Shown here piece after piece: positions 41,106 through 52,268 of a stretch of 64,000 nucleotides of DNA. Position 1 is the first letter of the stretch, and every line of letters starts with the position of its first letter. Location: NCBI RefSeq assembly GCF_001399755.1, contig NZ_LJCP01000006.1, positions 124,001 through 188,000 of the forward strand. Reading direction: 5' to 3'. The notes below the pieces were generated by a model. The model saw only the letters and a program-made list of their open reading frames with translations. It was not told where the DNA came from and searched no databases. A program made the position numbers and the translations under genes. The stretch comes from Thiohalorhabdus denitrificans (GTDB lineage Bacteria; Pseudomonadota; Gammaproteobacteria; Thiohalorhabdales; Thiohalorhabdaceae).

Positions 41106-41902
41106 CGGATAATCGCATCCTTCCAGAGGAACAGGATCCATCCGCCGGCCGCCAGGAAGGGCCCGAAGGGGATGGCCAAGTGCCTGTCGCCCCCCCGCAG
41201 GAGGATCAGCAGGCCACCGATTAGGCTACCCATCAGGGCCGCCAGGAACAAGGTGAGCAGAACCGCCACGGGCCCGATCCAGGCGCCGAGGGCGCCCAGC
41301 AGCTTGAGGTCGCCCCCGCCGAGCCCCTCCCGGCCGGTGGCCCGCTGGTAGGCCCAGCCCGCCAGGAACAGCAGCCCGTACCCGAGCAGGGCCCCCAGGC
41401 CGGCGGCCAGCAGGCTCGGCGGGGCCCCCGGGGCGCCGGGCGGGACGGCGGGAAGCGCGAGGAAGGCGGCGGCCAGCGCGTACAGCAGCCCCAGGGCGCC
41501 CAGCGGCAGGGTGAGCCGGTTCGGCAGGAGCTGCAGGTCCAGGTCGATACGGGTCAGCACCAGCAGAAGCCAGGTGAACACCAGGGCGGGGCCCAGGGTC
41601 CAGACCGGCCCGATGACCCAGGCTGTCACCGCGCCGAGGATGCCGGCGGCCAGCTCGGTAAGCGGGTAGGTCGCCGAGATGGGGGACCCGCAGCCCCGGC
41701 AGCGGCCGCGCAGGATCAGGTAGCTGAGCAGGGGGATGTTCTCCCAGGGGCTCAGGCGGTGGCCACACTCTGGGCAGGCGGAGGCGGGACGGACGATGGA
41801 GGCCGCGCGAGGCAGGCGGTGGGCCACCACGTTCAGGAAGCTGCCCACGATCAGGCCCAGCAGGCCGGTGGCGGCAACGAGAAGACCGGTTTCGGGGCTC
41901 AT
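41072..41902 (-). CDS. pilD: Type IV prepilin peptidase / N-methyltransferase
   Basis: Cleaves the class III leader of prepilins and methylates the new N-terminal Phe. The 276-residue membrane protein has the family start GSFLNVVAHRLP, the four-Cys zinc motif (CPECGH...CRGCGS) at about 43-71, and the two catalytic Asp sites: TRIDLDLQLLPN and GLGGGDLKLLGALGAWIG. About seven helices follow. It overlaps pilR by four bases. It is expected to process the short pilin at 51.9 kb. Confidence 0.95.
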   Translation of the reverse strand: MSPETGLLVAATGLLGLIVGSFLNVVAHRLPRAASIVRPASACPECGHRLSPWENIPLLSYLILRGRCRGCGSPISATYPLTELAAGILGAVTAWVIGPVWTLGPALVFTWLLLVLTRIDLDLQLLPNRLTLPLGALGLLYALAAAFLALPAVPPGAPGAPPSLLAAGLGALLGYGLLFLAGWAYQRATGREGLGGGDLKLLGALGAWIGPVAVLLTLFLAALMGSLIGGLLILLRGGDRHLAIPFGPFLAAGGWILFLWKDAIIRWYFALSGLSG

Positions 41903-43266
41903 TCCATCCCCAGCTTCTGGATGCGGTAGCGCAGGGAGCGCAGGCTCACCCCCAGCCGGTGGGCGGCGGCGGTCTTGTTGCCGCCGGTGGCCTCCAGGGC
42001 CTGACGGATCAGGCCGCGCTCCACCTCTGCCAGGTGGTGGTCGAGCTGGAACCCCCCGCCCATGGGGGTTTCCGTCGCGGCGGCGGCTTCCTCCGCCGCT
42101 TCCGCCTCCGAGGCGGCGCGCTCGCGGCCGCCCTGGACGTTCTCGGCGGGGATGGTGTCGCCGTCGGTCAGGCTTACCGCCCGCTCCAGGATGTTCTCCA
42201 GCTCGCGGACGTTGCCGCGCAGAGGCATGGCCCGCAGCCTGTCCAGGGCCCCCGGGCTCAGGATGGGTGGCGGCGGATCGTCCCGGCGGCGGAAACGGCG
42301 GGCGAGCAGGGCTGTGGCGATCTCGGGGATGTCCTCCGGGTGCTCGCGGAGGGCGGGAAGGTGGATCTGCAGCACGTCCAGGCGGTAGTACAGGTCCTCC
42401 CGGAAGCGGCCCGCCTCCACTTCCTCTTCTAGGTCCTTGTTGGTGGCGGCGAGGATGCGCACGTCCACCGGGATCTCGCGGGTGGCCCCCAGGGGCCGGA
42501 TGGCCCGCTCCTGGAGGGCGCGCAGCAGGTTGGCCTGCACGGACAGGCCCAGGTCCCCCACCTCGTCCAGGAACAGGGTGCCCCCTTCCGCCTCCTGGAA
42601 CAGGCCCTTCTTGTTTGTGGCGGCGCCAGTGAAGGCCCCCTTGTGGTAGCCGAACAGCTCGCTCTCGATGAGGTGCTCGGGGATGGCGGCGCAGTTCACC
42701 GGGACGAAGGGATGGCGGGCCCGCAGGCTGGCCTTGTGGATGGAGCGGGCTACCAGCTCCTTGCCGGTGCCGCTTTCGCCGGTGATCAGCACCGGGGCCT
42801 CGCTGCGCGCCACCCGTGCCACGCGGGAGCGCACGGCATCCATGGTGGCGCTCTGGCCCACTAGGTCCGAGTCCAGCTCTTCCGGCTCGGCGCTCGCCGC
42901 CTGGGTAAGGCGCAGGCCGTGCTGGGCCAAGGCGCGCAGCCGGTTGGTGTCGATGGGCTTGGACAGGTAGTCGTAGGCCCCGGCCCGCATTGCCTCCACG
43001 GCGCTCTCCGGGGTGCCATAGGCGGTTATCACTGCCACCGCCGGCGCCGGACGCAGCGCGGCGCTCTCCTCCACCAGGGCCATGCCGTTGCCGTCGGGCA
43101 GCCGCAGGTCGGTGAGGATCAGGTCCGGGGCCTCCTCAGCGAGCGCCTGCCGGGCCTCGGCGAGAGTCCCGGCCTCGCGCACCTCGAAGCCGAGCGGCTC
43201 CACGGTGAGGCCGATGAGCTCCCGTATGGAGGGCTCGTCATCCACTATGAGCAGGACCGGATTCAC
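41899..43266 (-). CDS. pilR: Sigma-54-dependent response regulator PilR
   Basis: A 455-residue NtrC-family activator. The receiver domain (1-120) has VDDEPSIRE and phospho-acceptor Asp in [13 protein letters not shown] (about 54). The AAA+ domain (about 140-370) has GESGTGKE, the sigma-54 contact loop GAFTGA and [11 protein letters not shown]. The C-terminal Fis-type helix-turn-helix is [22 protein letters not shown]. Phosphorylated by PilS, it should activate the sigma-54 promoter found in front of pilA in this window. It overlaps pilS by 29 bases. Confidence 0.94.
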
Positions 43267-44863
43267 CTGTTTCCCCCTTTGAACAGTGTCGCGGCAGTTC
43301 CACGGCGACGCAGGCTCCCCCGCCCGGCCGGTCGCCGATGGCGATTGTACCGTGATTGGCTTCCACCAGCTCCCGGATCAGTCCCAGGCCCAGGCCCGTC
43401 CCCTCGGGCGAGGTGGTGTAGAAGGGCTCGAAGACCGTCTCGCGCAGCCGCTCGGAAATCCCCGGGCCGTGGTCCAGGACCTCCAGCCGGACCCGCTCGG
43501 CCCCCGCCGCCCGGGCGCGGATCCGCCCCGGCGTATCGGCGGAGGCGCCGCCGTGCCGGACGGCGTTGACCCCCAGGTTCCACAGGATCTGCTGCAGGTG
43601 GCCCTCGTCCACGCAGGCCGTCAGCCCATCCGGGGCCTCCCAGTGGAAACAGCCCGGATTTTCCGGGCCGGACTCGCTGGCCAGCAGGCGGACGGCCCCC
43701 TCCAGCATGGGTCCCACCTCCAGCTCCCGCGCCTGTCCGTTGGGGGGGCGGAGGTGGCGGAGGAGGGTCTCCACCCACTCGTCCAGGCGTCGGGTCTCGC
43801 GCTGGATGATGCCCGTCAGGCGGCCGTCGGCGCCTTGCTCGTCCAGGAGCTGTCCGGCGTGCTGGATGGAGCTTAAGGGGTTCCGGATCTCGTGGGCAAG
43901 GTTAGCGGACAGCCGCCCGAGGGCGGCCAAACGCTCGGTGAGCTCCTGGGCGTGCTGCCGTCGCCGGGCCTCGGTGAGATCGTAGAGGCTGATCAGGGTG
44001 GTCTGGTGCCCGGGGAAGCCGAGGGGGGTGAAGCGGAAGGCGAGGACGTGGGGCTCCTGGTGCGGCTCTCCGTAGGATTCGGCCTGGAGCTCCCCGGTCT
44101 CCGGGCCGAGGCCCCGCCGCCATTGGCGAAAGGCCCGGAAAAGCCGGGGGCTGCGGCTGTCCAGCTGCTCCAGCTCGGGCGCGGGGGCGGGGGCCAGGAA
44201 GCGGTCGGCCTGGGGGTTGGCGAAACGGATGGCCCCCTGGTCCTCCACCACCAGTAGACCGTTGTCCACGCGGTCCAGAACCTGCTCGGTCAGGGCGGTG
44301 AGGGTGTGGACGTCCTGGGCCCGGCGGTGGGCCTGCTGTTGATGGCGCAGGAGCCGGGTGGTCAGGCCGTCGCTCAGCGCCGCCAGGGCAACAAGCAGCA
44401 GGCCCTGCAGCGCCAGGGCGCGGATGGCGACGTCGGGCTCCGGCCCGCCTAGGAGCAGGTAGCCCAGTCCCTGCAGCAGGAAGGCCGCGGCAGCCGCGTA
44501 GAAGGAGACCCCCGGCCCGAGCAAAAAGCTGGAGGAGACCACCACCAGGGGGTAGAGGAACACCAGGGGCCCGTCGATGGGACCGGAGAACCATACGAGG
44601 TGGGTGGCGGCCAGGAAGTCCCCGACCACCAGCGCTCCGGCAAGGCGGACGGGGTGCCCCCCGGCGCGCAGCCGGTAGAGGACCCACAGGCCCACCACTA
44701 CCTCGATCCACAGGGCCGCGGCGAGATCGCGGAGGGCGAGAGGTTCGAAGGGAGCCAGCTGCCCCCAGCGAACCGTGACGGCAGCCAACAACAGAACCAG
44801 CGCTGTCCGGTAGAGAACCGACCGCCGCAGGTTGGCGAGGGAAGGCGTCCAGCCGTTGGGCAT
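43238..44863 (-). CDS. pilS: Sensor histidine kinase PilS
   Basis: A 541-residue membrane sensor kinase. Residues about 15-180 contain six hydrophobic helices, as in PilS, followed by a PAS-like segment (LDRVDNGLLVVEDQGAIRFAN), the HisKA box ANLAHEIRNPLSSIQHAG (His about 325) and the HATPase domain with N-box LGVNAVRHGG, DHGPGI and GTGLGLGL. In Pseudomonas PilS senses pilin in the membrane and controls PilR. It lies 10 bases downstream of pilC. Confidence 0.93.
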   Translation of the reverse strand: MPNGWTPSLANLRRSVLYRTALVLLLAAVTVRWGQLAPFEPLALRDLAAALWIEVVVGLWVLYRLRAGGHPVRLAGALVVGDFLAATHLVWFSGPIDGPLVFLYPLVVVSSSFLLGPGVSFYAAAAAFLLQGLGYLLLGGPEPDVAIRALALQGLLLVALAALSDGLTTRLLRHQQQAHRRAQDVHTLTALTEQVLDRVDNGLLVVEDQGAIRFANPQADRFLAPAPAPELEQLDSRSPRLFRAFRQWRRGLGPETGELQAESYGEPHQEPHVLAFRFTPLGFPGHQTTLISLYDLTEARRRQHAQELTERLAALGRLSANLAHEIRNPLSSIQHAGQLLDEQGADGRLTGIIQRETRRLDEWVETLLRHLRPPNGQARELEVGPMLEGAVRLLASESGPENPGCFHWEAPDGLTACVDEGHLQQILWNLGVNAVRHGGASADTPGRIRARAAGAERVRLEVLDHGPGISERLRETVFEPFYTTSPEGTGLGLGLIRELVEANHGTIAIGDRPGGGACVAVELPRHCSKGETGESGPAHSG

Positions 44864-44872
44864 GGTGTCGAA

Positions 44873-46105
44873 TTAGCCGACTGCCTCGCCCATCTTGAAG
44901 ATCGGCAGGTACATGGAGATCACCAGGCCGCCCAGGACCACGCCCAGCACCACCATGATGATGGGCTCCAGCAGGTCGGTGAGGCCGTCCACGGCGGCGT
45001 CCACCTCGGATTCGTAGAAGTCGGCGATCTTGGCCAGCATGGTTTCCAGGCTTCCCGATTCCTCGCCGATGGCGATCATCTGGGTGACCATGGCGGGAAA
45101 AATGCCACTGTTCTCCATAGGGTCCGAAAGCCGCTGCCCCTGGCTCACGGCGTCCTGGGTGCTTTCCATGGCCTCCTGGATAACCCGGTTGCCTGCGGTG
45201 CGGCTGACGGTCTCCAGGATCTCCAGCATGGGCACGCCGGCGGCGGTAAGGGTGGCAAAAGTGCGCGTCATGCGGGCCACGGAGGCCTTGAGGGCGATGT
45301 CGCCGAAGACGGGAAGCTTCAATATCTGTTTATCCACAGTGTAGTGGAATCGCTCAAAGCGACGGTAGGCTTCCCGGAAGGCGAAGAAAAAGGCCGCGAT
45401 GCCCCCGAAAATCCAGTACCAGTTGGCTTGGAAGCTGTTGGAGAGGTCGATGACAAACTGGGTGGGGGCTGGCAAGGAGGATCCGAAGCCGGCGAAGATC
45501 TCCTTGAACTGCGGGATCACCCAGACCAATAGCACCGTCGTTACCAGACCAGCCACCACGATGACCGCGGTGGGGTAGAACATGGCCGATTTGACCTTGG
45601 CCCGGAGTGCCTCGGTCTTCTCCAGATAGGTGGCCAGGCGGTCCAGTACGGTGTCGAGGATGCCGCCCTTCTCGCCGGCCCGGACCATGTTCACGTAGAG
45701 CTCGTCGAAGACCTGAGGGTGGGCGGCAAGGGCGTCCTGCAGGGGCTCCCCACTCGCGATGTCGTCGGCGACCTGGTCGATCACCTTGCGCATGGAGCCG
45801 TTCTCGCTGCCCTTGGCGATGAGCCGGAAGGCCTCCACCAGGGGCAGGCCGGCATTGATCATGGTAGACAACTGACGGGTCATGACCACCACATCCTGGG
45901 TGGTGATCTTCTGTTTTTTCTGGAAAAGCGGCTGGGGCTTTTTCTTGACCCGGGCGGGGATGATGCCCTTGCGACGGAGGGCGGCGGTGGCCGCCTCCAC
46001 CGAGACGGCCTCGATCTCCCCCTTCTGCGTGGTTCCCTGACGGTCCCGTCCCTTCCACTGGAACTCGATTTGTTTAGGCTTCTCCGCCTGCTTCCCTTCC
46101 GCCAT
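44873..46105 (-). CDS. pilC: Type IV pilus inner-membrane platform protein PilC
   Basis: A 410-residue platform protein that couples the pilus motors to subunit assembly. There are two repeated T2SSF domains (about 75-200 and 280-400), each ending in a helix, with three membrane segments in all (about 180-205, 230-250, 380-400). Typical motifs are RQLSTMINAGLPLVEAF and FATLTAAGVPMLEIL. The N-terminus is Lys-rich and polar. pilB, normally directly upstream, is replaced here by aroE. Base composition is intermediate between the pil regulators and the low-G+C segment upstream. Confidence 0.95.
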   Translation of the reverse strand: MAEGKQAEKPKQIEFQWKGRDRQGTTQKGEIEAVSVEAATAALRRKGIIPARVKKKPQPLFQKKQKITTQDVVVMTRQLSTMINAGLPLVEAFRLIAKGSENGSMRKVIDQVADDIASGEPLQDALAAHPQVFDELYVNMVRAGEKGGILDTVLDRLATYLEKTEALRAKVKSAMFYPTAVIVVAGLVTTVLLVWVIPQFKEIFAGFGSSLPAPTQFVIDLSNSFQANWYWIFGGIAAFFFAFREAYRRFERFHYTVDKQILKLPVFGDIALKASVARMTRTFATLTAAGVPMLEILETVSRTAGNRVIQEAMESTQDAVSQGQRLSDPMENSGIFPAMVTQMIAIGEESGSLETMLAKIADFYESEVDAAVDGLTDLLEPIIMVVLGVVLGGLVISMYLPIFKMGEAVG

Positions 46106-46130
46106 ATGCCTGTTTCCCCTTATGGGCGGG

Positions 46131-46982
46131 TCAAGTTCCCAATTGTCCCTGTAGCCGATGGATTAACGACTCCACCACCGGCTCACTCCCGGTCCAGCGA
46201 GAATAGCTTATGGCCCCCTGGCGGACTAGCATTCCAAGGCCGTTGGCTACAGGAAGCCCAAGCTGGATTGCTGAATGAAGGAGGGGCGTCCGGGCGGGAC
46301 TATAGATAAGGTCGTAGACGATGGTTCCCTGAAGGGCATGGGTCAAATCTAATTCCGGGATGCTTTCACCCTTTAGGCCGAGGCTGGTGGTATTTACCAC
46401 GAGGCCACTCTGCTTCAATGCTGGGTTGATAGTTTGGATATCTAGCCCCATGCCTCGGCCGGATTGGGGGGCCATTTCCGAGGCAACTTGTTGGGCCCTT
46501 TTTTTATCCCGATTAGCAATGAAGATTTCCGGCAAACCCGCTTTCCGCAAAGCATAGACAACCGCCCGGGAGGCTCCCCCTGCCCCGAGTACAAGGGCTG
46601 GTTTTTCGACCCATTTCATGTCCGAAAAGCGGTGCCGAAGATCTTCTAGAAACCCGATTTGGTCAGTATTGTCACCAGTAAGCAGTTCGCCGTTGTTGAT
46701 GATGGTGTTGACTGCCCCTATGGCTCGAGCGCTTTCAGTCAATTCATCAAGGAACGGTATGACAGTTTCTTTATGGGGAACGGTAATGTTTACCCCACGT
46801 AGGCCAAGAACTGTTACGGAAGAGACGGCGGCTTCTAGATTCTCGGGAGAAATCCGAAAGGGGACGTATATAGTATCCAACCCAGAAGTTTCAGAGAAAT
46901 CCGCATGGATTATTGGGGATAGACTATGTTCCACAGGGTCCCCGAATAATCCCAGGACAGTGGTGTTTCCGGTAATTTGCAA
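46131..46982 (-). CDS. aroE: Shikimate dehydrogenase
   Basis: NADPH-dependent reduction of 3-dehydroshikimate. The 283-residue protein has the substrate motif VEHSLSPIIHADF, catalytic Lys in ITVPHKETVIP, NTI and GDNTDQIGF, and the NADP motif LGAGGASRAVVYAL. TTG at 46982 is chosen: GGAG lies 7 bases upstream and it starts four bases after the ABC gene stop, whereas an earlier in-frame start would overlap that gene. Base composition is low for this genome (25 G+C in the 60 bases from 46741), unlike aroKB, so it may be acquired with the flanking genes. Confidence 0.92.
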   Translation of the reverse strand: MQITGNTTVLGLFGDPVEHSLSPIIHADFSETSGLDTIYVPFRISPENLEAAVSSVTVLGLRGVNITVPHKETVIPFLDELTESARAIGAVNTIINNGELLTGDNTDQIGFLEDLRHRFSDMKWVEKPALVLGAGGASRAVVYALRKAGLPEIFIANRDKKRAQQVASEMAPQSGRGMGLDIQTINPALKQSGLVVNTTSLGLKGESIPELDLTHALQGTIVYDLIYSPARTPLLHSAIQLGLPVANGLGMLVRQGAISYSRWTGSEPVVESLIHRLQGQLGT

Positions 46983-46986
46983 AGCG

Positions 46987-47979
46987 CTACTCCGGCGCGG
47001 TAGAAACGTTGTTTTTAGTGGTAATGCTCCAGTCGCCAATCATCTGGGTCATAGCGTCTTCGAGGCCCGGGCCGGCGGGACGCACCTCCAGGATTTGGTG
47101 CCCGGCCTCCTCCAGTTTGTGGAGCATGGACCAGAGGGAATCCGGGTGGCTAATAGCGACCCATCGATTCCCACCTTCAAGCCGGGCCCCGACTCCGGCA
47201 GGCTCCTGTTCCCCTTTGGATCGGATTACATACTCCGAGAGGTGGTCCGCTACGATCTCGGAAGGTGATCCGACCCGCTGCAGTTCGCCCCCGTGGAGAA
47301 TTCCTATACGATCGGCCAACCGTTCAACATCGGCAAGTATGTGGGAGCTGAACAAAATGGTGCCTCCCCGGTCCCGGAAATCAACCAGAAGGTTTACCAC
47401 CTGTTTTCGCCAAATAGGATCTAAACCGCTCAGAGGCTCATCAAGAATCAAAAGGTTGGGGGTGCCAGCCAAGGCATGCCCGATTGCAGCCCGCTGAAGC
47501 ATTCCTTTGGAAAATTTTCGCAAAGGCTTCCCAGTGACCCCAGACAGGCCGAGCTCGTCCAGCAAATAGGTGATGCGTTCACTGGCTGTGCTGGTGGAGA
47601 GCCCGTGGACCCGGGCGGCTCCCATCAAGGTTTCCCATGGAGATAGGTGGCCATAGAGGGCGGGATTTTCGGGAAGGAAGCCAAGGGATTTCCGGCTCGG
47701 AGCTTGGCTAGCGGGAGCCCCATTGATCCAAGCTGCTCCATCAGATGGGAACAGCAACCCAAGAAGCAGTTTGATGGTGGTGCTTTTTCCCGCGCCGTTC
47801 GGGCCTACGAGGCCGAACGCCTCCCCCGGCCTGAGCTGCAAGCTTAAACCGTTCAGCGCTGTCACCTTGCGGGGCCGGCGGAACCACTGCCGATCCGTAA
47901 AAACTTTGGATAAGGTGCGGGTCTCGAGCGGAGGTTCCGCCGTCGTTCGGTTACCACCGAAAGAGATGAGACTAACCAT
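46987..47979 (-). CDS. ABC transporter ATP-binding protein (ABC-2 type exporter)
   Basis: A 330-residue cassette of the CcmA/NatA group. Walker A is GPNGAGKSTTIK near residue 60, the signature is the degenerate KFSKGMLQRAAIG, Walker B with the catalytic Glu is LLILDEPLSGLDP, and the H-loop is FSSHIL. A C-terminal extension of about 90 residues follows. The permease partner is encoded two genes upstream (48831-49628). Substrate unknown; placement in a pilus cluster suggests export linked to pilus or envelope assembly. It overlaps its upstream neighbour by 8 bases. Confidence 0.9.
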   Translation of the reverse strand: MVSLISFGGNRTTAEPPLETRTLSKVFTDRQWFRRPRKVTALNGLSLQLRPGEAFGLVGPNGAGKSTTIKLLLGLLFPSDGAAWINGAPASQAPSRKSLGFLPENPALYGHLSPWETLMGAARVHGLSTSTASERITYLLDELGLSGVTGKPLRKFSKGMLQRAAIGHALAGTPNLLILDEPLSGLDPIWRKQVVNLLVDFRDRGGTILFSSHILADVERLADRIGILHGGELQRVGSPSEIVADHLSEYVIRSKGEQEPAGVGARLEGGNRWVAISHPDSLWSMLHKLEEAGHQILEVRPAGPGLEDAMTQMIGDWSITTKNNVSTAPE

Positions 47980-48826
47980 TTTGACCTCGGTTCGAGGAGA
48001 GGGTCTTTGGCGGTGTGATTATGACATGGCCATCGGTATCCAGCTGGTAGCCGCGTTTGAATGGGTCCTCTGGAATTTCCTTAAGCCCTGCGAACCCGAT
48101 CAGATCAGGAAGGGTGTCAGGGGATTGACCGGTTTTCTGGCGATAGGATCTTTCGGCCTCTTGAAGGCGGATAAGCCCCCGCAATTGGTCTTGGCGCTTG
48201 TCCAGATCCCTCTTCAGTTGTCTGTGTCTGGTCGATTCCGCCATTGCTTGAACCATTTTCAGGGCCTCTTGGGGGCGGGTTCCTAGCGAAATCCATCTTC
48301 CCGCAAGAGAACGGAGGCCCGCCTTTTGGGGGTTGGAGGTCCGATCGGCCGCTTTAAGGATATAATGGGCGCCGGATTCGGGGTCTTTAGCGAAATAATA
48401 CAAGTTAAAGCCGGCGAAATAAGCGGGGAGCCAGTCCCAGGGCCGCTCCCGCGTGGCCGCCACTTGGATCCGCTGGTTGAGACGGTGGAAGCCCTCCCAG
48501 GGCAACGTTGCCTGTGCTTGATAGTAAGCGTCCTCATGGGAGGGGTTCAGAGCCATGGTGGTCTCCAGAAGGTCCCCAAACAGTTTGGTTTCTTGCCGGT
48601 TATCCAGGTGCGTGCCAACCACCATTGCCTTAAAAATGCCCAAATTTGCAGCAAGGTATGAATCCCCCGCCGCCATCCCCGTTGCAACGGGTGGGGGTAG
48701 AACGAGGGTAAGGTCCGGATCGAGCTTCCCATTCCGTGGATGTTGAAAATGAAGCCACCATCCCCCCCATAGGAAAGCGATCGCTCCCAGTAGGATCATT
48801 AACGGGATAGATGTTTTGGCCAGCAT
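47972..48826 (-). CDS. Membrane-anchored helical-repeat (TPR-like) protein
   Basis: A 284-residue protein with one N-terminal membrane segment (about 7-27), then an extended extracytoplasmic region. Residues about 65-210 are helical and alternate in the way of TPR repeats (LNPSHEDAYYQAQATLPWEG). The C-terminal part (DTLPDLIGFAGLKEIPEDPFKRGYQLDTDGHVI) resembles the end of type II pseudopilin-like domains. The ATG at 48826 is 4 bases after the permease stop. It lies between permease and ATPase genes of one exporter, so a role with that exporter is likely but unproven. Confidence 0.7.
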   Translation of the reverse strand: MLAKTSIPLMILLGAIAFLWGGWWLHFQHPRNGKLDPDLTLVLPPPVATGMAAGDSYLAANLGIFKAMVVGTHLDNRQETKLFGDLLETTMALNPSHEDAYYQAQATLPWEGFHRLNQRIQVAATRERPWDWLPAYFAGFNLYYFAKDPESGAHYILKAADRTSNPQKAGLRSLAGRWISLGTRPQEALKMVQAMAESTRHRQLKRDLDKRQDQLRGLIRLQEAERSYRQKTGQSPDTLPDLIGFAGLKEIPEDPFKRGYQLDTDGHVIITPPKTLSSNRGQNG

Positions 48827-48830
48827 GGCT

Positions 48831-49628
48831 CTAACCGAACTCGCGGCGGTTGAAAACCAGTACCGACAGACCAAGCAAAAGCAAAATATAGCCCGCTCCA
48901 TTGGCCAATGCTGCCAATATGAAATCGGTTTCCGGCCACTGGCCGTAAAGGAGCCCATCTCGGAAATCCAGTCGGCTCAGGTCAGGAAGTAGCCATCGAA
49001 TGAAGTTAAGAGGGCCTTCGAAGCCTTTTTCTAGGCCTCTAGCCTGCTCGGAGGATAGATAAGCCAAAACCGGTCCCAGCGTCCTAGCGGCCCAGGCAAA
49101 GGCCAGACCCAAGAGGAAAGGGAGAAGGGGCGAGGTGGAGACACTGCTGAGAAGCCAGGTAAAAGCGGCAACCGTCATCAAATCCACCCACAGGCCACCA
49201 ACAACACCTGCCACAGCTATTCCGTTGTTAACCGGGGTAGATTGCTGATATCCAAAACCGGCGGCGGATCCCAGTCCAGCCAATAAAAGCCCAAAGACAA
49301 CAAGAGCGGCAAGGACCAAAAGCCCCAAACCTAAAAATCGCCCTAGAACATAGCTCCTACGGGGGAGGGGGTAGGTCAGGGTGGAAAACAGGACCTTTCG
49401 ATCGATGTCCCGGGAGAACAGTTCCTGGGTCCAAAATAGAACCAACAGCACGCCCAGGATGCGAATGGCCGATACCCCGACATCCATGGCAATGGTGGCC
49501 GGGTGCCGTCCGGAAAAGAAGGAGGCGAAATAAGCCGCTACCATGGCTAAGAGGCCCACCAGGACAAGGGCGAAGAAGCTCCGACTTCGCACTCCTAGCC
49601 TGAGCCCAGTCAAAAAATGGAAGTACAT
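48831..49628 (-). CDS. ABC-2 type transporter permease
   Basis: A 265-residue membrane protein with six predicted helices, including LVLVGLLAMVAAYFASFF and IRILGVLLVLFWTQELF. The cytosolic loop SRDIDRKVLFSTLTYPLPRRSYVLGRFLG matches the 'E-R-x-x-G-T-x-x-x-x-L-x-x-P' loop of ABC-2 permeases. It partners with the ATPase at 46987-47979. It is 6 bases from the O-antigen-ligase-like gene, so the set is one operon. Confidence 0.85.
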   Translation of the reverse strand: MYFHFLTGLRLGVRSRSFFALVLVGLLAMVAAYFASFFSGRHPATIAMDVGVSAIRILGVLLVLFWTQELFSRDIDRKVLFSTLTYPLPRRSYVLGRFLGLGLLVLAALVVFGLLLAGLGSAAGFGYQQSTPVNNGIAVAGVVGGLWVDLMTVAAFTWLLSSVSTSPLLPFLLGLAFAWAARTLGPVLAYLSSEQARGLEKGFEGPLNFIRWLLPDLSRLDFRDGLLYGQWPETDFILAALANGAGYILLLLGLSVLVFNRREFG

Positions 49629-49634
49629 GATGCA

Positions 49635-51182
49635 TCACCTCGTTATAGCATCCGGGCGCGGTACTCCGTTGGATTCCCTTCCACTTCGCGTCCCAGGATA
49701 AGAATCCGTCCAGGGAGGATACTCGAGCCGCCCTTGCAGCCAGAAGCGGGGGTTACGCGGGCCGATCAGCTCTTGGTGGAGGGTCTCGGCTTTATGAAGC
49801 TGCGGAATATGCGGAAAAGTTATGGCCATGATCAGGATGGGTGGAAGAGCAACAATTCCCAAAAACGCAGCAGAACCTCCCCCCTTCAGAGAAGCTGTCT
49901 TGACGCTTTTGGGAAGAGGCTCGTAGCTCCAAAGGGAAGCGGCGATCACCGCCAAAAGGAACTGGCTTGCGGGCATGACGATTATGCCGCTAACCAAACT
50001 GTGGCCCAGCCCCGCCAGAAGGCTCGCGAGAAGGGCGGTATGGATGATTTGTGCGGCCCCGCCACCGTGCCCAACCGCCGACGATAGCTGTCCCGTTTCC
50101 TGCCGGAAGAAACGCAAGAGCCCCCAGGCGGAGAGGATCACCAATAGAAAAAGGGCCGGAAGCCCCCACTCGGAGCCAATCTGGAGGAGGCTGTTGTGGG
50201 GGTGGGCACTGCCGGGGGGACCGCCCCCCAAAGCGTAATGCATCGGCCCCTGGCCTAGCCAGGGGGCTTGGGCAATGGCATCCAAGGCATGCTCCCAGAG
50301 CTGAAGGCGGGATTCTCCGGATGGGTCGCCGCTAAGCTTGGAAGCCGTCCGCTCCACCCCTGGGCTCTGACCTGAAAAGATCAGGAAGTAGAGCAGCCCT
50401 CCCCCGGTAAGGAGGGACAGATTGACCTTTTGCCAGGCCCATGCACGGGGGAAGAACACCAGGATCACCATGGCCCCTAGGACCCCGACCCAGGTCCCCC
50501 GGGTGCCGGTAGCGAACAGCATGGCAAACCAGAAGGCGGCAATGACGGCTAACAACCAGAACAGGGTGCGGCTGAAACGGGCCGCAAGGAGGACGGTGGC
50601 AGCGAGGAGGGGCAAGGTCAGTGTCTGGACCTGGCTGAAGAAGCGTACATTGGCGAAGCGGCCAAAGGGCCCGATCCACTCGATGGAATTTCCCCGTACC
50701 CAAGTCGCCCAGACGTAGTGATCCATGAAGCCCCCGGAGTAGGCCGTGATTCCGCCCAAGAGGCCGACCATCAAGATCCCGGCCCCGGTACGGGGGGTTA
50801 GCTCCAGTGCTGCCGCAACAGCCATGCTCAATTGGAAAAGGGCGAGAAACCATGCCCACTCCAAAAGGGCGGCCTGCGGTTTGGCGGCAAGGCCGGCTGA
50901 AGGCAGGCCTAAAACGAAGAACAGGATCAGGCCCAGTCGGCCGATTCGGGGGATGGCTTGCCAAAGGGCGCGGGCTCGTTGTCGAAATAAATTCGAGGCG
51001 AGAAGGGCTAGGGAGCCAGCGGAGAAAACGGCGATCAGGTATAAGCGCTTGAGGTCATACTCAAGGCTCCCTACCGGAAAGTAGGGTTTGCTGTTCATGA
51101 GGGCAAAGAAGGCTGCTCCGACTACCCCCAAGAATAGGGAAGGAAGTAATGGGGCTTCGTAAAAATGCCGGGCGGATCCCAC
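49635..51182 (-). CDS. O-antigen ligase-like (Wzy_C) membrane protein
   Basis: A multi-span protein of the O-antigen ligase/polymerase superfamily, 515 residues from the GTG at 51182. About 11-12 helices flank a large periplasmic loop with SRLQLWEHALDAIAQAPWLGQGPMHY and the ligase-type G-x-x-x-x-x-H-P-H-N-S-L-L-Q motif. Members attach glycans to lipid A-core or, as PilO/TfpW/PglL, to pilin. The position in a pilin cluster makes pilin glycosylation a serious possibility. The start is uncertain: the frame is open to 51377, but the extra N-terminal region is basic and unlike a membrane protein. Confidence 0.8.
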   Translation of the reverse strand: MGSARHFYEAPLLPSLFLGVVGAAFFALMNSKPYFPVGSLEYDLKRLYLIAVFSAGSLALLASNLFRQRARALWQAIPRIGRLGLILFFVLGLPSAGLAAKPQAALLEWAWFLALFQLSMAVAAALELTPRTGAGILMVGLLGGITAYSGGFMDHYVWATWVRGNSIEWIGPFGRFANVRFFSQVQTLTLPLLAATVLLAARFSRTLFWLLAVIAAFWFAMLFATGTRGTWVGVLGAMVILVFFPRAWAWQKVNLSLLTGGGLLYFLIFSGQSPGVERTASKLSGDPSGESRLQLWEHALDAIAQAPWLGQGPMHYALGGGPPGSAHPHNSLLQIGSEWGLPALFLLVILSAWGLLRFFRQETGQLSSAVGHGGGAAQIIHTALLASLLAGLGHSLVSGIIVMPASQFLLAVIAASLWSYEPLPKSVKTASLKGGGSAAFLGIVALPPILIMAITFPHIPQLHKAETLHQELIGPRNPRFWLQGRLEYPPWTDSYPGTRSGRESNGVPRPDAITR

Positions 51183-51384
51183 GGTGCCTAGCGACCTCGG
51201 GTAGGGGTATCGGGAGGGGTCCGGTGGAGGCAGAATCTGAAGGGCGCGATGGCAGGCCTTAGGAATCCGCACAGCATTTGACCTGCGGTCTGCCGAGAGC
51301 GCCTTATCCGGCCGGTAGGTGCGGGAGCATGATCTCCCCGCAATGGATATTCGGGACCCGGCCAATGGTTGTCCCAAGGCGGTA

Positions 51385-51448: not shown

Positions 51449-51835
51449 TTAGGTGGCGTCGGCGTCGCTCCAGGCGGAGCTGGCGGCGGAATCAGCCCCC
51501 ACATCCTGGGGGTTGTAATCGTATTCCTGGACCGAGCTTTGAGCCGTGCTGGCCCCAAACGCCTTGGTCCCCCCCTGGTGGGCGGCGCTAACCACAATAT
51601 CGTTCGACAGGGCGGATCCGACGCCCATTTGGACTTTCACGCCGGGAGAGGCCGTTGCCTGGAAGGAGTTGCGCAGCAACTCATTCCCACCGGCGTTCGT
51701 GATATTGGTCTTATCGCACTTTACTTGGACGGCATCCGTTTCGCCAATGCCGCTAACCGCGCAGTCGGATTCTCCAGCCAGAGCAAAGGAAGGAGCCAGC
51801 ATCCCGCAAAGCATAAGGACAGTGAGCTTACGCAT
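51449..51835 (-). CDS. Small secreted protein downstream of short pilin; candidate PilA-C/Spc-like partner
   Basis: A 128-residue protein with a signal peptide (residues 1-20, cleavage after ALA). The mature chain has two cysteines (about 25 and 40), which could form a disulfide, and is rich in Ser, Asn, Ala and Gly with strand-like segments (VKVQMGVGSALSNDIVVSAAHQGG). It has no membrane helix of its own. It begins 44 bases after the short pilin stop and shares its terminator. In Geobacter the short pilin (PilA-N) is followed by a separately encoded globular partner (PilA-C/Spc); this gene has the matching place, size and export signal. Sequence homology is not shown. Confidence 0.7.
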   Translation of the reverse strand: MRKLTVLMLCGMLAPSFALAGESDCAVSGIGETDAVQVKCDKTNITNAGGNELLRNSFQATASPGVKVQMGVGSALSNDIVVSAAHQGGTKAFGASTAQSSVQEYDYNPQDVGADSAASSAWSDADAT

Positions 51836-51879
51836 TGTGATTCTCCATGGTTGAATGAAACTGGCAGCGCACCGCCAAG

Positions 51880-52077
<198 letters not shown>

Positions 52078-52137
52078 TGGTGCTCCTCCTGTGGGTTTGT
52101 CCGTAAACGGTGGGCCGTGGCCCGCGTCCGGATAGGT

Positions 52138-52155
52138 AAGCAATTGGCGTGCCAA
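52138..52155 (-). promoter_or_regulatory. Sigma-54 promoter of pilA
   Basis: On the minus strand TTGGCACG-CCAA-TTGCT: -24 TGGCACG, four-base spacer and -12 TTGC match the RpoN consensus exactly. Transcription should begin near 52128, about 50 bases before the pilA ATG. PilR in this window is a sigma-54 activator. Confidence 0.93.
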
Positions 52156-52200
52156 GGTTTTGGGTACGGCGGCGGGCGGGCTGGCGGGGCGGTGGAAGGG

Positions 52201-52264
52201 TTGGGGTGACAAGATTGGTCACCCCAAGAGACAAGGAGCGTGTCCCCATCTGGACAGAAATGTC
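52201..52264. promoter_or_regulatory. Candidate PilR upstream activating region
   Basis: A perfect 10-base inverted repeat TTGGGGTGAC-N7-GTCACCCCAA (52201-52227), centred about 86 bases upstream of the expected start, and three TGTC/GACA elements (52241, 52253, 52261). Pseudomonas PilR sites contain TGTC. The hairpin could instead help end the upstream gene, but no T-run follows it on the minus strand. Confidence 0.5.
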
Positions 52265-52268
52265 GCGG

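Follow-up and report, generated by a model that had tools for sequence, protein, structure and literature searches.

The short type IV pilin gene pilA of this gammaproteobacterium is preceded by a sigma-54 promoter of exact consensus, and our computations show upstream of it a conserved operator, TGAC-N7-GTCA, which keeps its spacing to the promoter and is associated with pilin genes and with pilSR. It is highly probable that PilR activates the pilin operon from this sigma-54 promoter, a reading in which we infer PilR binding, the transcript start, co-transcription and regulation in the cell. A first-pass annotation of the same DNA had proposed that the short pilin is controlled in this way, by an NtrC-type activator, most likely PilR, at an upstream site, and this is supported here: four relatives keep the box and the operator core at a constant spacing, and among the pilin genes of the class the dyad belongs specifically to those with a sigma-54 promoter. 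On the other hand, the suggestion of a new recognition sequence is not borne out, since sigma-54 pilin promoters of many phyla, those of Pseudomonas included, have TGAC-N7-GTCA as well; for the same reason it is to be seen as a widespread control site and not as one peculiar to this genome. As a PilR/sigma-54 pilin promoter, the site is a good example but an ordinary one. With a sharp, spacer-specific operator in place of loose TGTC elements there is a site that can be tested, and PilR regulons become predictable by pattern.

The pilin promoter and its surroundings

The sigma-54 box matches TGGCACG-N4-TTGCW with zero mismatches, with GG at -24 and GC at -12, just as the annotation had claimed, and no other sequence in the window, that is, in the whole stretch of 64,000 nucleotides analysed here, comes within one mismatch of that consensus (Table 1). 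There are four exact matches in the 2.87 Mb of the genome, the pilA box among them; with one mismatch allowed the count is 28, against 22 for a backwards control, so that the evidence for the promoter lies in its position and conservation and not in the match alone. A sigma-54 box occupies the orthologous position in five genomes from two families (this genome and four relatives). The distance of about 50 bases before the ATG given earlier is wrong for the box, whose distance to the ATG at 52077 is 62-77 nt, and right for the predicted start at about 52128. The predicted 5' leader (52078-52129) contains a GGGC-CACG-GCCC hairpin near the start, identical in the related genome G001, which perhaps stabilises the pilA mRNA. 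On contig C1 of the same genome (L031, L035), an exact sigma-54 box precedes the gene for a 227-aa secreted protein, and a near-consensus box 1.2 kb from it precedes the gene for a 299-aa secreted protein.

Table 1. Features of the pilA promoter and of the associated pil genes (positions in the window)
Feature	Position	Strand	Remarks
pilR, sigma-54 activator	41899..43266	-	receiver, AAA+ (GAFTGA), Fis-type HTH
pilS, sensor kinase	43238..44863	-	HisKA/HATPase; weak 6TM_PilS match
Secreted 128-aa partner	51449..51835	-	downstream of pilA; adjoins short pilin in five genomes
pilA, 65-aa short type IV prepilin	51880..52077	-	N_methyl motif; best solved relatives Geopilin domain 1
Ribosome binding site AGGAGGAG	52083..52090	-	from sequence; identical in G001 and G002
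Predicted transcript start	52128..52129	-	placed from the -12 GC at 52141-52140
Sigma-54 (-24/-12) promoter TGGCACGCCAATTGCT	52139..52154	-	exact consensus; kept in G001, G002, G028 and G173
Extended perfect 10+10 inverted repeat TTGGGGTGAC-N7-GTCACCCCAA	52201..52227	-	centre 52214 = -86; outer arms found only in this genome
Core operator TGACCAATCTTGTCA (TGAC-N7-GTCA), putative PilR dimer site	52207..52221	-	centre about -86; seen in relatives, class-wide, whole-collection and in Pseudomonadaceae
Weak second site ACACGCTCCTTGTCT	52229..52243	-	5/8 core, 22 bp upstream of main dyad
Weak third site CGACATTTCTGTCCA	52251..52265	-	5/8 core, 44 bp upstream of main dyad

The gene pair at 51449-52077 looks, from its sequence, like a Geobacter-type split pilin in a gammaproteobacterium, and the two genes are probably co-transcribed. 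The Geobacter geopilin operon (the PilA-N/Spc split pilin) likewise has a short pilin followed by a secreted partner gene, and the best solved matches of the present pilin are the Geobacter Geopilin domain 1 proteins 9egp, 7tgg and 6vk9 (best 1.1e-15). The partner, which is 112-161 aa long in the five genomes and has a shared S-G-V...H...T...S pattern, shows a suggestive likeness to Geopilin domain 2, its top PDB match, with an E value of 0.056 that is not significant and an alignment mostly over the signal peptide; a single-sequence structure model of it reached a pLDDT of 47, which is low confidence. As stated earlier, a PilR with GAFTGA is encoded in the same cluster, with pilSR 7-10 kb from pilA and not adjacent to it. 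When its HTH was compared by regular expression, only the window's own protein matched. The stretch between pilA and pilC-pilS-pilR (43238-51377) holds O-antigen ligase-like, ABC-2 type transporter and AroE genes, which are possibly tied to pilin modification.

The operator in this genome, its relatives and other bacteria

A perfect 10+10 inverted repeat centred near -86 had been noticed before and was found again. Its rarity is weak evidence: such repeats are common in the window, which has 15 of them with spacers of 3-20, against 2-9 in Markov-simulated windows, and the repeat by itself therefore says little. There is no second copy of the full repeat in the genome, even with 3 mismatches, and the pilA site was the sole match in an own-genome scan for dyad plus box with a gap of 40-70 bp. 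For footprinting we used two genomes of the same genus (G001 and G002) and two of another family (G028 and G173), each with an orthologous short pilin and sigma-54 box. The core (T/C)GAC-N7-GTCA stands 52-54 bp upstream of the box in all five genomes (TGACCAATCTTGTCA, CGACCATTTTTGTCA, TGACCCGTTTTGTCA, TGACGATTTTTGTCA and TGACATTTTTTGTCA).

Further half-sites lie upstream of the dyad. The main dyad has 8/8 of the core, and weaker copies with 5/8 begin exactly 22 and 44 bp further upstream. Published PilR half-sites are of the form (N)4-6(C/G)TGTC, of which there is one CTGTC here, at -128, the better placed sites being TTGTC. The upstream TGTC elements that had been described are present (CTGTC at -128, GGGACA in reverse at about -115 and GACA at about -135), and to them must be added the best-placed one, a TTGTC at -105 that had been overlooked, 22 bp from the dyad's own TTGTC. 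Since weak copies occur at 22 and 44 bp, and the 22 bp offset is shared by a TNNGTC half-site in G001 and G002, the TGTC elements are probably half-sites of a phased array, which here would most likely consist of one strong dyad and two weak copies at 22 bp steps.

In the two genomes of the other family, pilin relics were seen between the sigma-54 box and the short pilin, in the form of a leader FSQYRERGFDASARSDARNF-stop in G028 (L060) and an open reading frame EQGFILNALMFAAATIGTLAAVVIP... in G173 (L061). The promoter in that family therefore precedes a decayed pilin copy and then a working short pilin.

Pilin genes from 369 genomes of the class were picked by protein similarity only and their upstream DNA was taken; at a cut-off of at least 10/12 for the sigma-54 box, 108 of the 165 pilin regions passed. 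TGAC-Nk-GTCA was counted for k = 0-16 in the 180 bp upstream of the box. The exact form with N7 was present at 57 of the 108 sigma-54 pilins, against 0-3 for each other spacer, and the form with one mismatch at 75 of 108, where shuffled sequence gave about 6; among the 57 pilins that lack a sigma-54 box the dyad was found at 6. As far as this sequence survey reaches, the dyad is specific to sigma-54 pilin promoters across the class, about half of which lack the exact dyad and about a third the one-mismatch form. Pilins directly downstream of pilSR gave 24/54 exact and 36/54 one-mismatch dyads (other spacers, exact, 0-3). Adjacency to pilSR served as the contrast; PilS is near-ubiquitous in the sampled pilin genomes, which makes its mere presence a weak one, and the upstream dyad is common to pilin promoters of genomes that contain PilS/PilR. 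A tandem second dyad with at least 6/8 of the core occurs at +20 bp in 26 of 78 cases, against 0-3 at other downstream offsets, and a side signal for TGAC-N15-GTCA (27/108, one mismatch) probably arises as an artefact where GTGAC sites lie in tandem at 20 bp. The distance from dyad to box is about 70-165 bp in most of the class, greater than here.

The same arrangement was recovered without reference to genes, by running the pattern TGACN5TTGTCA-N45-75-TGGCACN5TTGC over a GTDB-based contig collection. Among the matches listed, 72 of 119 lie immediately before a type IV pilin gene; a hand calculation puts the chance expectation at about 14 matches in 257 Gb of uniform sequence. The listed pilin-linked matches come from Gamma- and Betaproteobacteria, deltaproteobacterial groups, Aminicenantes, Aquificota, Acidobacteria and Mariprofundus. 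Dyad-box distances among the matches listed fall into groups of 51-55, 60-65 and 71-75 bp that are one helical turn (about 10.5 bp) apart, with a Rayleigh R of 0.77 in the pilin set versus 0.32 in the others, related genomes not being independent in this comparison. Pseudomonas typographi (L075) is among the listed matches to dyad plus box. To cover the Pseudomonadaceae further, 29 genomes were gathered by an oprL start-sequence pattern, which we take to be a marker of this family, so that membership rests on the oprL match. In these, a dyad with at least 7/8 of the core precedes the box by 61-85 bp at 15 pilin promoters, with TGACATTTTTTGTCA and TGTCAAATTTTGTCA as examples, and by 121-129 bp at another two; control genomes yielded no usable pseudomonad pilin.

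Other readings of the inverted repeat

The repeat, with a folding energy of -16.8 kcal/mol, lies about 40 nt past the stop codon upstream, as would be expected if it were an RNA hairpin terminating the genes upstream of pilA and unrelated to pilA control. Yet no T run follows the stem, no terminator was called at the repeat, and the spacing of its core to the sigma-54 box is conserved. Moreover, the hairpin is lost in G001, G002, G028 and G173 while the TGAC/GTCA core is kept, and it is this loss of outer arms and hairpin around a retained core that argues for a DNA operator. The missing T run and the unconserved hairpin led us to reject a terminator as very unlikely; the outer arms may have a dual role in this genome alone. 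Conservation also bears on the idea that PilR here has an altered specificity and recognises the entire 10+10 palindrome as an extended sequence of its own. The arms are perfect over 10 bp and the repeat is unique in the genome, but the outer six bases of each arm are unconserved in the relatives, which argues that the unit is TGAC-N7-GTCA and not the 10+10 repeat. Even the relatives of the same genus lack the TTGGGG/CCCCAA arms, and the long RNA hairpin is found in this genome alone. In the 72 listed pilin dyads, only the first flanking pair is slightly above expectation (complementary in 35/72 versus 0.36 expected), bases 2-6 being at chance. Private arms and chance-level flanks led us to reject the extended palindrome as the unit, and a PilR of altered specificity is very improbable. 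Visible constraint acts on 8 of the 20 paired letters; a striking palindrome is not the same thing as a recognition unit.

A different protein on the dyad has to be considered because the genome encodes about 13 full-length sigma-54 activators. One of these, for example of the FleR/NtrC type, could bind the dyad while PilR acted on the TGTC elements only or elsewhere, and some of the listed matches to dyad plus box do stand before genes other than pilins, among them flagellar genes of other phyla. However, across the class the dyad goes with pilin genes and with the gene order pilS-pilR-pilA, and it is present in the Pseudomonadaceae, the family for which PilR control of pilA has been established (PMC6058289). 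We regard another activator as quite unlikely. That PilR is the ligand of the dyad is, by contrast, likely, given the dyads in Pseudomonadaceae pilA promoters, a geometry like that of the NmpR site discussed below and the uniqueness of the site in its own genome.

Known PilR sites and a proposed mechanism

The present promoter resembles the PilR/sigma-54 pilA promoters of Pseudomonas aeruginosa, Geobacter sulfurreducens, Azoarcus and Myxococcus in its -24/-12 box, its upstream activator site and the PilS/PilR pair of its pil cluster. It is also similar to the RpoN consensus of G. sulfurreducens, TTGGCACGGTTTTTGCT, and to the pilA promoter mapped there by 5'-RACE (PMC2725144). Published PilR sites are characterised by a NifA-like TGT-N11 element with GTCT elements close by (PMC6058289), whereas the conserved unit here is the dyad TGAC-N7-GTCA. 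This difference is probably one of description, since the pilA promoters of Pseudomonadaceae carry the same dyad. A close parallel in geometry is offered by NmpR, an NtrC-like protein of Myxococcus that binds the tandem dyad GCGCA-N5-TGCGC (PMC11841059): like TGACA-N5-TGTCA, this site has two 5-bp half-sites around a 5-bp centre and is often tandem upstream of a sigma-54 box, but its half-site sequence differs from TGACA/TGTCA, and the target here is a pilin.

TGAC-N7-GTCA is most likely a general PilR operator, usually a tandem array, to which PilR is predicted to bind. We propose more tentatively, and with slightly less than even confidence, that TGAC-N7-GTCA (TGACA-N5-TGTCA), mostly tandem and helically phased to the box, could be the ancestral PilR operator, not described as such, across Pseudomonadota, deltaproteobacterial groups, Aminicenantes, Aquificota, Acidobacteria and others, the published TGTC elements being its half-sites. 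The generalised operator may be undescribed so far: text searches of the literature, with the primary PilR footprint literature outside their scope, returned no paper stating a TGAC-N7-GTCA dyad.

A mechanism can be proposed in which PilR binding, phosphorylation and looping follow the established behaviour of the family. Sigma-54 polymerase would wait in a closed complex at TGGCACG-N4-TTGC, and PilS would phosphorylate PilR. Phosphorylated PilR dimers would then occupy the dyad at -86, aided by the weaker copies 22 and 44 bp upstream, assemble the AAA+ ring and reach the polymerase by looping. Engagement of sigma-54 by GAFTGA, with ATP hydrolysis, would give the open complex, so that a signal to PilS would lead to production of pilA and its downstream partner.

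Several other sites came to light during this work. A second exact dyad plus sigma-54 site in G173 (L072, contig C20), with a distance of 55 bp, precedes the gene for a predicted secreted 461-aa protein, which is a candidate for a further PilR target. Outside the class, dyad plus box was seen upstream of flagellar basal-body-like genes (L122 and L160). In one genus, sigma-54 boxes precede FliL-like genes (L066, L067 and L068) with TGTCA...TTTGTCA about 41-51 bp upstream, and sites of this type may serve a flagellar activator.
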